Origin: Herpetosiphon giganteus
GTDB lineage: Bacteria > Chloroflexota > Chloroflexia > Chloroflexales > Herpetosiphonaceae
Length of the DNA stretch: 64,000 bases
Direction of reading: 5' to 3'
Assembly (NCBI RefSeq): GCF_016907925.1
Contig: NZ_JAFBCZ010000023.1
Location: 1 to 64,000 of the forward strand
Shown: positions 20,820 through 26,636 of the stretch, piece after piece
Position numbering within the stretch: the stretch's first letter is position 1
How the letters are laid out: the number at the start of each line of letters is the position of its first letter
The notes under the pieces: generated by a model
Told to the model about the DNA's origin: nothing
What the model saw: only the letters and a program-made list of their open reading frames with translations
Databases searched by the model: none
Translations under genes and position numbers: made by a program

Positions 20820-21185
20820 CGAACTACCTCCAACTATCAGTGAGTATCAAGCAAGTTCTAAAGTATGTCCTTGGTATGATAGCATAGAGCAGGATTAGGG
20901 AAGGATGAATTATGAATTATGAAGAAGACCATAAAAAAGGCAGAAGTCAGAAGGCAAAAGGCAAAAAGGCTATGGGCTATAGGCGAGCGGAACATCTTTC
21001 CTCGCGTTAACCATGGCCTGATCCCCTCACCCCAACCCCGCTCCCACGCAGCGGGCGAGGGGGAACCACCAGACCGGTGCTCCCCTCGCCCGCTGCGTGG
21101 GAGCGGGGCTGGGGGTGAGGGCATGCTCCTCATAGCCCAAAGCCCATAGCCCAAAGCCTATAGCCAATAACTCAACGCCCCAACT
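20820..21185. repeat. Repeat spacer with GC-rich inverted-repeat element
   Basis: No gene. AGTCAGA/AGGCAAA heptamers (about 20938-20975) and GGCTAT arms lead into a GC-rich element at about 21005-21124. Its 38-39-nt arms (21025-21062 and 21082-21120) are nearly perfect inverted repeats beginning CCTCACCCC and ending GGGGTGAGG. A related copy is at about 30486-30628. AGCCCATAGCC units then run up to the stop codon of the methyltransferase gene. Confidence 0.85.
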
Positions 21186-21974
21186 CTACAACAAACCGAA
21201 CTCGCGGGCCAACTCTTGGTCGAATTGGGCCTCGCCAAAGGCTGGCACATACAAGGTTGCATAGGCCGAAACCTGTTGCTCTGCTAAATCGTTAAGCTGC
21301 ACATGGCGAATTGTTGGCTCTTCGATTGGCAAAATTGCTGCTTGGTAGATTGTTACTTGGTGCTGTTCAGGATAGAAGTTTTGTAAATGAGCCACCAAGC
21401 GAGCTAACCCAGCGCGTGGATCAAGCCCAGCATGCACAACCTTGAAGTAGCCAATCACCCCAATTTGCCATAAAACCAACGGTGTTGTTGGATCAAAACG
21501 CCGTGGCCGCAGCAAAAAATCGCTGGCCTCGTAGCTTTGATAGCCATGCAAGCCAGGATCGAGCGCCAAATCGGCAAATAGACAGGCCTCGGCAGAAATG
21601 CCAGGTAGCAGATTAACCTGCACTCTTTCACGCTGGCCGCGCTGCACTAAATCGCTGGTTGGAGTTACAAACACGCTTGGATGGCCATAAAACGCAACAC
21701 ACACCCGCTTGCCTTGCTCGACCGCTGCCCAAATATGCGCAACCATGGCGTGATACACCTGTTCGCGTGGCAAATCTGCTTGGTAAAAATGGGCCAACGA
21801 TTCAGCATGCGGATTCAACTTGTGAATCCATTCATCGGCCAGCGGGTGCATGACCAAATAAAAAGTCTGATCGGCTTTGCTAATCCAGGCGTGAGCTTCA
21901 TTGGTTAGATGCGCAATCATCGTGATGCCAGTGCCGACCAGTGTCAACGAGCCTTGTTTACGTTGGTTTGGCAT
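21186..21974 (-). CDS. Borosin-type peptide backbone N-methyltransferase (tetrapyrrole-methylase fold), trans-acting candidate
   Basis: This 262-aa SAM-dependent methylase has the corrin/porphyrin methylase fold. It starts with GSLTLVGTGI (8-17) and has FYGHPSVFV (95-103) and LLPGISAEACLFADL. The EASDFLLRPRRFDP, LWQIGVIGYF and QVTIYQA segments recall fungal OphMA and bacterial SonM-type borosin enzymes rather than cobalamin enzymes. In the LAHFYQADLPREQVYHAM stretch, Tyr64, Arg70 and Tyr74 appear to match the OphMA catalytic Tyr/Arg/Tyr set. Here the enzyme is free-standing, as in split borosins. Its ATG follows the preceding stop after 1 nt (TAAGATG), so translation is coupled to the 197-aa candidate substrate. 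No cobalamin or heme genes lie nearby. The family likeness is from memory; the role is an inference. Confidence 0.78.
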   Translation of the reverse strand: MPNQRKQGSLTLVGTGITMIAHLTNEAHAWISKADQTFYLVMHPLADEWIHKLNPHAESLAHFYQADLPREQVYHAMVAHIWAAVEQGKRVCVAFYGHPSVFVTPTSDLVQRGQRERVQVNLLPGISAEACLFADLALDPGLHGYQSYEASDFLLRPRRFDPTTPLVLWQIGVIGYFKVVHAGLDPRAGLARLVAHLQNFYPEQHQVTIYQAAILPIEEPTIRHVQLNDLAEQQVSAYATLYVPAFGEAQFDQELAREFGLL

Positions 21975-21975
21975 C

Positions 21976-22569
21976 TTATTGTGGCTGCTCGTCAAAGCCA
22001 ATTTCAAATAATGGTGGCTGATCGTCTTTTTGGCGATGATAGACAAAATTGGTTAATTGGGTATGCACTGGTCGTGTTCGACCAACCAAAATATAATTAT
22101 TGGCCGGAATTGTTAATTGAATTGGAATATTGGAGCAATTGTAGCTTGGATTTTCGATTTGCTCTTTGCTGCGAATATAGAAAACTTGCGGCATGTCAGC
22201 GGAATCATTTGGGTCGACATAACACACATGTAAATCAAAATAGGGATTTCCGCTAGAATCTTCGATCATATAACTATGATTGAGCAGCCAGCACGTAACC
22301 GTATAATCTTTGGATTTATCGAGCGCTTCGATAAAGACATTCATATACGATGAAACAGTAACATCGATATTGGTATAGGTTTGGGTTTCTGGTGCGAATT
22401 GGCCAAGACTGCGCAAAGTCATCACGGTCGTAATTTCTTGCACCGGATCTTGTTTGGGTAAGCTTGGGCCAAGGCCTGCTTGCTGTAAAAATGCTTGAGG
22501 ATCGTGCTTGAATGAGGCAAGGCGGCTGGGATCATCGACGAGGGTTTGGACGAAATCGACCATATCCAT
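21976..22569 (-). CDS. Candidate split-borosin precursor: leader-like helical domain plus beta-rich domain (197 aa)
   Basis: The N-terminus is MDMVDFVQTLVDDPSRLASF followed by KHDPQAFLQQAGLGP (residues 1-35). This helical pattern (LxxDPxxLxxFxxDPxxFLxxxGL) resembles the borosin-binding domain of SonA-type substrates and, more loosely, NHLP/LigA-fold leaders. Residues about 40-75 are a linker rich in Thr/Val. Residues about 75-197 look like a beta-rich domain with three Cys and many aromatic residues. Known split borosin precursors are much shorter (about 70 aa), so this would be an unusual substrate. There is no signal peptide or membrane segment. The start at 22569 has AGGAGG 9 nt upstream. 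It lies 13 nt after the BTAD regulator stop and 1 nt before the methyltransferase. Alternatively it could be an ordinary partner protein with a docking helix. Confidence 0.6.
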   Translation of the reverse strand: MDMVDFVQTLVDDPSRLASFKHDPQAFLQQAGLGPSLPKQDPVQEITTVMTLRSLGQFAPETQTYTNIDVTVSSYMNVFIEALDKSKDYTVTCWLLNHSYMIEDSSGNPYFDLHVCYVDPNDSADMPQVFYIRSKEQIENPSYNCSNIPIQLTIPANNYILVGRTRPVHTQLTNFVYHRQKDDQPPLFEIGFDEQPQ

Positions 22570-22582
22570 GAATCTGTTCCTC

Positions 22583-25500
22583 CTAATAAACCGCAAGTTT
22601 TTGGCTTTGCTCAATTTGGCTTAAACAAAGCGCAACGTAGGCTTCAATTCCTGCCAGTTCGGCTGTGCCATAGTTATTATTGCTGACAAGCTGGCCTTGC
22701 ACGTGTAAACGATTAAGCAAGTTTTTGGTTTCGGCGCTACAGGCTGGATGCTGCAATACGCGCTGCCAAAGTTCGAGCCAATGGCTTGGCTGGCCGGTGC
22801 AAACCTCCTGCCAAAGCTGAAGCACGGTCGCATAGCATTCTAGTAACAACGGAATCTCTTGACGTTGCTGGGCGATTGCAATGGCGCGGGCCAACCATGG
22901 TTGCACATGCTGAAACTGGCGTTGAGCCAATTCTAGTTGGGCGATATGCAAGGCCGCCCGTCCAATCATCGCCTCTACGCCCAACTCTTGGAAGATGGCA
23001 AAGGCTTTGTGCAAATAGCCAGCACTTTGTTGATATTGCTCGCGGCGCAGCGCCAACATGCCCATTTGATCGCGAATTAATGCCTCTCCAAGCGGGGTTT
23101 TGAGCTGATAGGCCAAATCGAGGCTGGCTTCAAAATAGTGTTCAGCCTGATCATACTTGGCTTGAGCCAATGCCACAACCCCTAAAAAGCGCTGGCTATG
23201 ACATAAACCCCAGCCATGTTTTTGGGCTTGATACTGCGTACTACAGGTCAAAAAGGCATCTTCGGCAGCGCGCCAATTGCCTTGGGCCAAACGCACAGCA
23301 CCAATCGACAACCAAGTATCGCTCATTTTAATCTGGTCGTTGATTGCTTCTGCCTGCGCTAAACAGCGCTGCAATAAATCCAAGGCGCGGGTATATTCGC
23401 CGCGCCGCTGGGTAATTACCCCAAGTTGCTTGTAAATAAATAATAATTCGTTAGCATTATGTAGCTGCATTCGTTCAAGTAGTTCGATACATTGTTGTAA
23501 TAATTGCTCTGCATGAGTTAATTCGCCCAAAATATATTGAAATTCAGCATAGCACGCCACAATTCGCACAATAATTAATCCGCTTGCTTGGTTATGTATT
23601 GTTTGATCAAGCATATTTTCTATTAATGCAGCAGCTGGCTCGAAAAGCTGTTTGCCTTCAATTTCGCGGTTGCGAATCGCAAAAAAATCATGCAACGCAA
23701 TACAATACGCGCCAAGAATTTGAATTTGCTGGGTTTGAACTGCCCACAGCCAGCCAGCGCGCAGATTATCCAACTCTTGCTCCAACACAAACAAGGCTTG
23801 TTGGCTGGCAGTTCCATGAATCAACGGCTCTTGTTGCTGGCTCAATTGGCCAAAATAGCTGGCGTGATGCTGATAGAGGCTGTGTTGGTCGGGCGTAGTT
23901 TGTTGGAGCTTGGATTGGGCAAATTGATGGAGTAACGGGTGCAAGGCATAGCGGGTTTGCTGTTGCTGCACTTCAAGCATTAACAGCGATTTGGCGTGTA
24001 AATTTGCCAAAACTGGCAGATCGACTGCGGCAATCGCTGCTGCTGCTTGGGCATCGAAGCTGCTGGGAAACACCGCCAAGCTCGCTAAACAAGCCTGTTC
24101 ATGCTGATCAAGCAATTGCCACGAATAATCGAAGGCTGCTTGAATGCTGCGGTGGCGGGTTGGAATATCTACTACATCGCTGTGAAATAACTGCATATCT
24201 TGGCGTAGTGCCTGCACAATTTCGTCGCCGCTGCGAATCGTCATCCACGGGGCGATTAATTCGATTGCCAGCGGCAAGCCATGAACCATTTGGCAAATTT
24301 GGCCAATTGCTTGGCGCTCGGCGGGCGCATAATCAGCTAAATTTGCCGATTTGCCTTGACGTTGCAAGCAATTCATAAATAGATCAAGCGCTGCAAAATG
24401 CTGGAATTGTTCAGCGAGCAAGGGCGAATATTCTGCATCAAGCTCGATTTCGGGATAAGCCAAACCTGCTACTTCCAACACATATTCGTTTTGCAGCCGC
24501 ATGCGTTCGCGCGAACCGATGATTAAGCGCAATTGGGGAATTTGCTGAAGCAGGCTGCTCAAGGCTAGGCGTGCACTGGTGGCCAGCAATTCGCCATTAT
24601 CGATGATGATCAATAACTCTTGGGTTTGAATTTGGCGAATGATATGCTCGACAAAATCGCTATTGCGGGGCGGCGCGAGGCTGAGCGTTTGGATTAACGT
24701 CAAGAGGACTGGCTCGGCCTCTAAAAGCTGGGGCTGTTGGTCGGGGCTAAACAACGAACAATAAAAAACGCCATTGCTGGCTGCCCCAAGATAATCATTG
24801 ACCACCTTCCAGCCAAAGGTCAGGGCTAGCTGAGTTTTGCCACTGCCACCAGCGCCCATAATCGTCAGGAGTTGATGTTGTTCGGCGGCAAGCCAATAGG
24901 TTAGGCGTTCTAACTCGCTTTGGCGACCATACAACAGCGGAGTTGCCCGAATCAGGCGTTGTGGGCGTTGGGCAGGTGTGGCCAAAATTTGGCGTTGCAA
25001 GGCTGCGCTGGCTGGTTCGGGTTGTAATCCATATTCACGCTCGAGCACTTGTTCGAGCAAGCGATATTGGCGCAAGGCCGTGTGGCGCTGGCCAGTGCGC
25101 ATCAACAACACCATCAACTGACGTTGCGCAACCTCATCGCACGCATCGAGCGTGACCAAGCGTTGGAGCCAACGAATCGCCTCATTGTAGTTGCTGACCA
25201 GGCTATAGCGTTCGATCAGGCGGCGTAGCGCGCCGAATGTTTGTTGTCGCCAATATTCGGCCTGTTGAAGCTGCCATGTGCCAAAGCCTTCTGCATCGCG
25301 CAAATAAAAACCGTTTAAGAAATCGCCCTGATAGTGCTCAATTGCGCTGGCCAAGTCTTCGGTTGAGCTAGCTGGATTTGCATAAATCTTGGCGCAATAG
25401 TGCAGGTCAAGCCAATAGTTTGCTTGCGGCTGCAAGCTAATTGTATGCCGCGTGACCTCAATAAATGGATTAAGCGCTTTGCGTAATTGATTGAGCGTTA

Positions 25501-25738
25501 GGCGCAGGTTGCCCGCCGTGCGCTCCGCCGATAAATCATCCCACAACAATTGGGCCAACACCTCGCGTTCGTGGGGATAGGGATTGACCACAAGGTAAGT
25601 TAGGAGGGCTTCGACTTTGCGGGTTGGTAGATCGCTAATCCGTTGATTATCGATAAAAATCCGCAAACCACCAAAAACGTGAATCCGTAAACTTGGCACC
25701 GATTGAGCCGAATCATCAGGCTGAGGCGTGACATTCAC
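22583..25738 (-). CDS. BTAD / NB-ARC / TPR transcriptional regulator (SARP-like, STAND)
   Basis: A 1051-aa regulator. Residues about 18-110 form an OmpR-like winged helix (LRIHVFGGLRIFIDN, RKVEALLTYLV), and about 115-255 the bacterial transcriptional activator domain (AIEHYQGDFLNGFY, REYGLQPEPAS). The P-loop GAGGSGKT at 295-302 opens an NB-ARC ATPase. It continues with LLIIIDNGELL (Walker B), RLIIGSRERMRL, GLPLAIELIAPW and HRSIQAAFDYSWQLL. From about 640 on there are TPR repeats, as in YTRALDLLQRCLAQAEAINDQ and YDQAEHYFEASLDLAYQL. These proteins usually activate adjacent secondary-metabolite genes. It precedes the candidate precursor by 13 nt in the same transcription unit and diverges from a sigma factor. 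Confidence 0.85.
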   Translation of the reverse strand: MNVTPQPDDSAQSVPSLRIHVFGGLRIFIDNQRISDLPTRKVEALLTYLVVNPYPHEREVLAQLLWDDLSAERTAGNLRLTLNQLRKALNPFIEVTRHTISLQPQANYWLDLHYCAKIYANPASSTEDLASAIEHYQGDFLNGFYLRDAEGFGTWQLQQAEYWRQQTFGALRRLIERYSLVSNYNEAIRWLQRLVTLDACDEVAQRQLMVLLMRTGQRHTALRQYRLLEQVLEREYGLQPEPASAALQRQILATPAQRPQRLIRATPLLYGRQSELERLTYWLAAEQHQLLTIMGAGGSGKTQLALTFGWKVVNDYLGAASNGVFYCSLFSPDQQPQLLEAEPVLLTLIQTLSLAPPRNSDFVEHIIRQIQTQELLIIIDNGELLATSARLALSSLLQQIPQLRLIIGSRERMRLQNEYVLEVAGLAYPEIELDAEYSPLLAEQFQHFAALDLFMNCLQRQGKSANLADYAPAERQAIGQICQMVHGLPLAIELIAPWMTIRSGDEIVQALRQDMQLFHSDVVDIPTRHRSIQAAFDYSWQLLDQHEQACLASLAVFPSSFDAQAAAAIAAVDLPVLANLHAKSLLMLEVQQQQTRYALHPLLHQFAQSKLQQTTPDQHSLYQHHASYFGQLSQQQEPLIHGTASQQALFVLEQELDNLRAGWLWAVQTQQIQILGAYCIALHDFFAIRNREIEGKQLFEPAAALIENMLDQTIHNQASGLIIVRIVACYAEFQYILGELTHAEQLLQQCIELLERMQLHNANELLFIYKQLGVITQRRGEYTRALDLLQRCLAQAEAINDQIKMSDTWLSIGAVRLAQGNWRAAEDAFLTCSTQYQAQKHGWGLCHSQRFLGVVALAQAKYDQAEHYFEASLDLAYQLKTPLGEALIRDQMGMLALRREQYQQSAGYLHKAFAIFQELGVEAMIGRAALHIAQLELAQRQFQHVQPWLARAIAIAQQRQEIPLLLECYATVLQLWQEVCTGQPSHWLELWQRVLQHPACSAETKNLLNRLHVQGQLVSNNNYGTAELAGIEAYVALCLSQIEQSQKLAVY

Positions 25739-25841
25739 GGAGCTACATCTCCCATAAAACGATTTTGAAACGCTGCGCTGCTATGCTTTGAATTGTAGCA
25801 GACCTGCTAACGGATATTCAATAGCTAGTGAAGGATGCGCT

Positions 25842-26453
25842 ATGAACAGCGAAGTTCGCAATCAAAATCAACCCAGCGAAGCAGTGGCCATACAACTCGT
25901 CGAACAAATTTGTCGCGGCGAACAGGCTGCAATTTGGGAGTTGTATAGTTTGTATCAAGCTGAACTTTCGCATCAATGCTTAGTTTGGATGCATGGCAAT
26001 GCTCACGATGCAGATGAAGCCTTGAGCCGTTTGGTGCTCAAAGCTTGGGAATCGTTGCCACGCCATGCGCATAAAATTACCAATGCCAAGGCTTGGTTGA
26101 TGCGTATGGCCTACAACTTGTGTATTGATCTGCATCGCCAGCAGCAACGCGAACTCAAGCGCTTGCAACCGCTCGATAGCCTGCTGGCCAATGATGAAAA
26201 TATGCCGCAAAGTGCCACGCCCTCGCCAGAAACTGCCTTGCTCAAGCGCGAAGTCTACGAAACGATTAATCAAGCTTTGCAAGCATTGTCGCCGCGCCTC
26301 AACAGCACTTTTTCCTTGTGGTTCTACAACGATATGTCGTGCGATGCGATTGCCCAGCACCAAGGAATTTCGCTGGCCAATGTGTATAAACGTTTGCAAC
26401 AAGCCCGCGATATGCTTCAACCTCAATTACGCCCAACCACGGTCGAAGGATGA
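25842..26453 (+). CDS. Sigma-70 family (ECF-like) RNA polymerase sigma factor
   Basis: A 203-aa protein with region 2 at about residues 28-95 (WELYSLYQAELSHQCLVWMHG, then DADEALSRLVLKAWESLP and AKAWLMRMAYNLCIDLHRQQQR). A linker follows, then region 4 at about 140-195 (LQALSPRLNSTFSLWFYNDMSCDAIAQHQGISLANVYKRLQQAR). The start at 25842 is preferred because GAAGGATG precedes it; 18 upstream codons are open but lie in the promoter region. It diverges from the BTAD regulator with only about 100 nt between them, so it may control the methyltransferase locus. Its last codons (gtc gaa gga TGA) run into a GGATGAA array. Confidence 0.85.
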   Translation: MNSEVRNQNQPSEAVAIQLVEQICRGEQAAIWELYSLYQAELSHQCLVWMHGNAHDADEALSRLVLKAWESLPRHAHKITNAKAWLMRMAYNLCIDLHRQQQRELKRLQPLDSLLANDENMPQSATPSPETALLKREVYETINQALQALSPRLNSTFSLWFYNDMSCDAIAQHQGISLANVYKRLQQARDMLQPQLRPTTVEG

Positions 26454-26636
26454 AGGATGAGGGATGAAGGATGAAATGCCAAATCAAAAGGCAGAAATCA
26501 GAAGGATGAGGGATGAGGGATGAAGGATGAATTATGAGGGATGAAATTTAACCACGAAGAACGCGAAGGTTTGTTGGGATCAAGCTTCGTGCTCTTCGTG
26601 GTTTCGTTCTTCGTGCTCTTCGTGGTTTCGTTAGCC
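26454..26636. repeat. Heptamer array and inverted CTTCGTG arms between convergent genes
   Basis: GGATGAA/GGATGAG heptamers run from the sigma-factor stop to about 26545, interrupted by AGGCAGAAATCAGA units. From about 26552 there are opposing arms: ACCACGAAGAACGCGAAGG, then CTTCGTGCTCTTCGTGGT. They can fold into a long hairpin between the converging genes. Confidence 0.75.

Follow-up and report, generated by a model that had tools for sequence, protein, structure and literature searches.

Here, we describe a locus in the soil bacterium Herpetosiphon giganteus at which an enzyme of the borosin alpha-N-methyltransferase family (MT) is encoded directly beside a 197-aa protein that carries a docking region resembling that of a borosin precursor. 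We are confident, short of certainty, that the locus encodes a long-precursor split borosin system, in which the genes would form an operon, the enzyme would capture the leader and methylate the backbone behind it, and a beta-rich domain would stay attached. This reading rests on the E-values and active-site residues of the enzyme, a leader match that is unique in the genome, the linkage of precursor and MT, seen in six Herpetosiphon species and a distant relative (G423), and a conserved patch behind the leader. The MT very probably adds backbone methyl groups to its neighbor, judging from sequence, from which we also infer the role of the C-terminal domain and a control by the adjacent regulators.

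Gene layout and identity of the enzyme

The locus lies in a window of 64,000 nucleotides (contig NZ_JAFBCZ010000023.1, positions 1 to 64,000) and comprises the following features.

21186-21974, minus strand: borosin-type alpha-N-methyltransferase (MT), ATG start, 262 aa, SonM-like, without fused clasp or core
21976-22569, minus strand: putative borosin precursor or substrate protein, 197 aa
22465-22569, minus strand: precursor residues 1-35, leader resembling the borosin-binding domain (BBD), three helices (leader profile, hhalign, IniB_NTERM)
22411-22443, minus strand: precursor residues 43-53, VQEITTVMTLR, candidate core (conservation relative to G423, spacing)
22360-22410, minus strand: precursor residues 54-70, variable linker (dN/dS; 6/17 positions invariant within Herpetosiphon)
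21979-22359, minus strand: precursor residues 71-197, conserved C-terminal domain, beta-rich in the best model (dN/dS of ~0.1, AF2 model)
22579-22584, minus strand: AGGAGG ribosome-binding site of the precursor, kept in six genomes
22583-25738, minus strand: BTAD/NACHT(NB-ARC)/TPR STAND-type regulator, 1051 aa (Pfam BTAD 1.3e-17, TPR, weak NACHT/NB-ARC)
25842-26453, plus strand: ECF-type sigma factor, diverging (TIGR02937, 5e-21)

A single nucleotide (21975) separates the precursor stop from the MT start codon, and the precursor ATG lies 13 nt past the stop of the BTAD protein. On inspection of the sequence, the AGGAGG of the precursor was found to overlap the BTAD stop codon TAG (22583-22585). 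This overlap and the 1-nt gap point to a single operon, so that the STAND/BTAD protein, the precursor, and the MT would be expressed together. The initial annotation had given the coordinates, both spacings, and the diverging sigma factor exactly to the base; its motifs GSLTLVGTGI, FYGHPSVFV, and PGISAE are present in the MT, and the host, Herpetosiphon, belongs to the Chloroflexota, as it had stated. No peptidase, macrocyclase, or exporter was recognized in the cassette; the flanking genes were given a cursory look by sequence. The best NCBIfam match of the BTAD/STAND protein, far under the cut-off, was HaaT (1.9e-20), a TPR protein that belongs to cyclophane RiPP clusters, and a further weak match was the TPR protein of the FxSxx-COOH system, which is likewise a RiPP system.

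Two repeat regions border the locus. Just downstream of the MT, positions 21021-21124 hold a hairpin-forming repeat with 33-nt arms, 97% complementary, of which the genome holds dozens of scattered copies (89 matches, with many copies matched on both strands) and which looks like a REP- or MITE-like element. After the sigma factor, 26445-26632 contain short direct repeats of the GAAGGATGAGGGATGA type, followed by two tandem copies of CTTCGTGCTCTTCGTGGTTTCGTT.

Compared with all PDB sequences by phmmer, the MT matched SonM best (6e-47), then OphMA/dbOphMA (1.5e-40 to 3e-41) and MroMA (1e-37), whereas the next match after the borosin enzymes, a precorrin-2 methylase, had an E-value of 0.47. Identity to SonM was 37% over 252 aligned positions. 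The active-site residues Y58, R67, Y71, Y93, F99, and W166 of SonM, whose roles have been described (PMC8429565), correspond to Y64, R70, Y74, Y96, F102, and W169 of the MT, so that all six residues checked are present; Y64, R70, Y74, F102, and W169 are invariant across an alignment of eight relatives. The initial annotation had read the protein as a borosin-fold enzyme from its Tyr64/Arg70/Tyr74 pattern and had proposed to set borosin enzymes against tetrapyrrole methylases. That comparison bears it out: the MT falls with SonM and OphMA and away from methylases of the cobalamin, diphthine, and RsmI types, and its catalytic residues align with the borosin set.

The Pfam TP_methylase domain was detected in the MT, and this, together with weak NCBIfam matches, is what could speak for a cobalamin or siroheme methylase, an RsmI, or a diphthine methylase that merely has a chance neighbor. 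However, the NCBIfam cobalamin and siroheme models scored far under their cut-offs (at best 52 bits versus 525 for YabN, and 26 versus 163 for CobI). Such an assignment was ruled out by these scores, the E-values, and the borosin-specific residues, which makes the chance-neighbor explanation extremely improbable. The genome encodes only two other TP-methylases. A tree that included other Chloroflexota TP-methylases separated the borosin rows by one change, on a weak branch (62/57) and with long outgroups, so that the family assignment rests on E-values and residues. On these grounds, the assignment of the 262-aa MT to the borosin alpha-N-methyltransferase family holds, and methylating activity is predicted.

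The putative precursor and its predicted docking region

We built a leader profile from six leaders at borosin loci outside Chloroflexales, namely, SonA, Sinorhizobium, Bradyrhizobium, Streptomyces, the Chloroflexota genome G162, and one fused protein from IMG/VR. Searched against all six frames of the whole 6.16-Mb genome with E-values up to 10, this profile matched the precursor gene only (8.7e-5). The NCBIfam model IniB_NTERM (NF038175), which matches the first 34 precursor residues (1.7e-8), likewise had the precursor gene as its sole match in the whole genome (3e-8). This domain is not borosin-specific, nor is LigA (PF07746), to which the G423 leader shows a weak match; IniB_NTERM was also matched by SonA (9.8e-7) and a Sinorhizobium precursor (4.5e-5). 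Profile-profile comparison of precursor residues 1-35 with the leader profile (hhalign) gave a probability of 95.5, and the best of 4000 shuffled leaders reached 0.19 versus 9e-6 for the real leader. Thus, the 197-aa neighbor is independently recognizable, by its predicted docking region, as a borosin precursor. The match spans helices 1-3 of the five BBD helices; for helices 4-5 of SonA, neither the alignment nor the model shows a clear counterpart in Herpetosiphon. When a seven-sequence precursor profile was compared with the PDB, SonA chains were the sole matches, in register, with an E-value of only ~0.7.

The leader-like N-terminal helix noted earlier thereby gains statistical support, and the proposal that the neighbor is the substrate is strengthened by a BBD signature found nowhere else in the genome; we regard the protein as the putative substrate. 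Alternatively, the MT could modify another protein, and the 197-aa protein could use its BBD-like helices to bind the MT as a regulator or chaperone. BBD/LigA/IniB-like helices are known in other contexts (PMC8429565), and the conservation of the precursor is that of an ordinary protein. We consider this improbable, since the 197-aa protein is the sole BBD-like protein detected in the genome and adjoins the MT in both families. In the preferred reading, a substrate captured by its leader, the MT, probably a homodimer like SonM, would bind the precursor through the N-terminal helices.

Candidate core and C-terminal domain

Behind the leader lies a short patch of Thr and hydrophobic residues, VQEITTVMTLR (residues 43-53), in which 6/11 positions are identical to G423, compared with 0/7 and 2/23 in the flanks. 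The G423 counterpart, EEVSTVFTLSI, begins ~19 residues past the leader anchor leucine and ends at a spacing of +29, that of L63, the first methylated residue of SonA. Because the patch is conserved between poorly conserved flanks and its spacing in G423 is close to that in SonA, we take VQEITTVMTLR as the most likely core segment. By analogy with SonM (PMC8429565), the MT would methylate backbone amides in the N-to-C direction within the hydrophobic, Thr-rich segment after the leader, for which residues 43-53 are our best guess. Compared with SonA and G423, Herpetosiphon has ~8-10 fewer residues between leader and candidate core. The AF2 model places residues 50-54 in a strand, so their conservation is possibly structural.

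The remainder of the protein is under marked constraint. The precursors of the six Herpetosiphon species are 82-94% identical, and residues 71-197, of which 103/127 are invariant within the genus, show a dN/dS of ~0.1, as in the leader, indicating purifying selection; alignment columns 35-70 reach ~0.33-0.45 between clades. A first AF2 run of the precursor with six near-identical rows gave a pLDDT of 39 and was discarded. With the G423 row included, one of five models reached a pLDDT of 73, the other four being much worse, and we therefore do not rely on the fold. In this best model, residues 71-197 are all-beta with a mean pLDDT of ~80. The C-terminal domain matched no Pfam, PDB, or PHROG family; Foldseek with the model found nothing at an E-value of 0.001 in PDB or BFVD, and a second look with VIA-align found nothing at Z 5. 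The OB-fold/SSB and AbyU-barrel rows in that output, with Z up to the maximum of 3.2, were taken as noise. Given the lack of significant sequence or fold matches and the poor other models, we call the C-terminal ~125 residues just a conserved beta-rich domain, as the best model suggests. The initial annotation had overlooked this large domain, which is what sets the substrate apart.

Both the conservation of residues 71-197, as strong as that of the leader, and the C-terminal position of the SonA core (PMC8429565) would suit a methylated core elsewhere in the same substrate, for example in the C-terminal tail (PPLFEIGFDEQPQ) or in beta-domain strands, the domain then acting as a spacer. In G423, little of the tail is conserved (161-197: 4/22 aligned positions), and the conserved patch sits directly behind the leader; we thus see a more distal core as a minority possibility, perhaps one chance in a few. 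If the core lies behind the leader, as we prefer, the beta domain downstream of it would remain part of the protein, as a folded follower or cargo. One point against the long-precursor reading is that a folded domain at the C terminus is atypical and might get in the way of core binding; OphMA-type proteins can have residues beyond the core. It is tempting to speculate, albeit tentatively, that backbone N-methylation might here be a permanent mark on a folded protein, placed between docking domain and beta domain and governed by a dedicated STAND regulator, and that no peptide product is released.

Distribution and relation to known borosin systems

Enzyme and precursor are present in 6/6 Herpetosiphon genomes. 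The part of the neighborhood common to all six consists of the cassette (STAND/BTAD regulator, precursor, and MT) and the diverging ECF sigma factor; only the two nearest relatives also showed malQ and the genes beyond it. Among 158 Chloroflexia genomes, a further enzyme of this kind was found only in G423, a member of another, distant Chloroflexales family, with the same gene order: the end of a TPR protein, a 203-aa precursor (BLASTP 1e-12, 30% identity to the Herpetosiphon precursor), and an MT of 57% identity. The TPR protein end weakly resembles the C terminus of the BTAD protein (6e-5), and the contig ends there. A single scan of genome contigs with a narrow profile matched Herpetosiphon only, and plasmids and viral contigs yielded no precursor homologs.

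The closest characterized counterpart is SonM-SonA, the type IV split borosin of Shewanella oneidensis (PMC8429565; PDB 7LTC), which has a likewise separate MT (262/263 aa), an identical catalytic set, and, as here, a separate, adjacent precursor with an N-terminal BBD-like leader. SonA, in contrast, has 71 aa and ends in its core, whereas the Chloroflexales precursors have 197-203 aa, with a beta-rich domain behind leader and core region, and thus depart from the type IV architecture of a ~75-aa precursor ending in the core. The Herpetosiphon operon also differs in the BTAD/STAND regulator that precedes the precursor. The fused borosins OphMA, MroMA, and KchMA share the MT family and catalytic residues but are enzyme-precursor fusions, while the Herpetosiphon genes are separate and adjacent, as in split borosins. 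Precursors beside related enzymes, SonA included, have 71-143 aa. The relatives in Sinorhizobium (L036), Streptomyces (L034), Bradyrhizobium (L035), and G162 (L031), with MTs of 37-44% identity to the Herpetosiphon MT and an adjacent BBD-like precursor of ~76-143 aa, lack the beta domain, and no BTAD gene was observed ahead of their precursors. G162, a Chloroflexota genome, carries a split borosin of the ordinary kind, with a precursor of 143 aa and an MT of 260 aa.

Several of these loci had further features. The G162 pair lies ~1.8 kb from an apparent iron-siderophore ABC transporter (ATPase, two permeases, and binding protein, by sequence). On the plasmid of Bradyrhizobium sp. 155 (L035), two borosin-type MTs, a TauD-like dioxygenase, a short BBD precursor, and a prolyl oligopeptidase-family gene occur together, and the peptidase could be a maturation protease. 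A Burkholderia arboris plasmid (L037:3965-6289) encodes a 450-aa MT to which a leader-like region is fused at the C terminus and, after it, a separate 308-aa protein in which TEVT motifs recur; these may be an enzyme plus leader and a separate repetitive core protein. An IMG/VR contig classed as viral (L041:2428-3792) encodes, in one ORF, a BBD-like leader at the N terminus and a borosin MT at the C terminus.

Split borosins are an established group, listed as types IV-X (PMC11395268, PMC11285071). The characterized type IV systems act on short peptides, and no final natural product had been linked to type IV at the time of its description (PMC8429565). The combination of a long precursor bearing a conserved domain with a STAND/BTAD operon would, provisionally, be new among split borosins; the papers defining most borosin types, of which types V-X are reportedly due to Cho et al. 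and Imani et al., lay outside our comparison and might already list such a long precursor. No Chloroflexota borosin was met in the open literature searched. Our findings extend split borosins with a predicted borosin-binding leader to Chloroflexota, and the conserved pair of enzyme and domain-bearing putative substrate makes the modification of full proteins by borosin enzymes directly testable.
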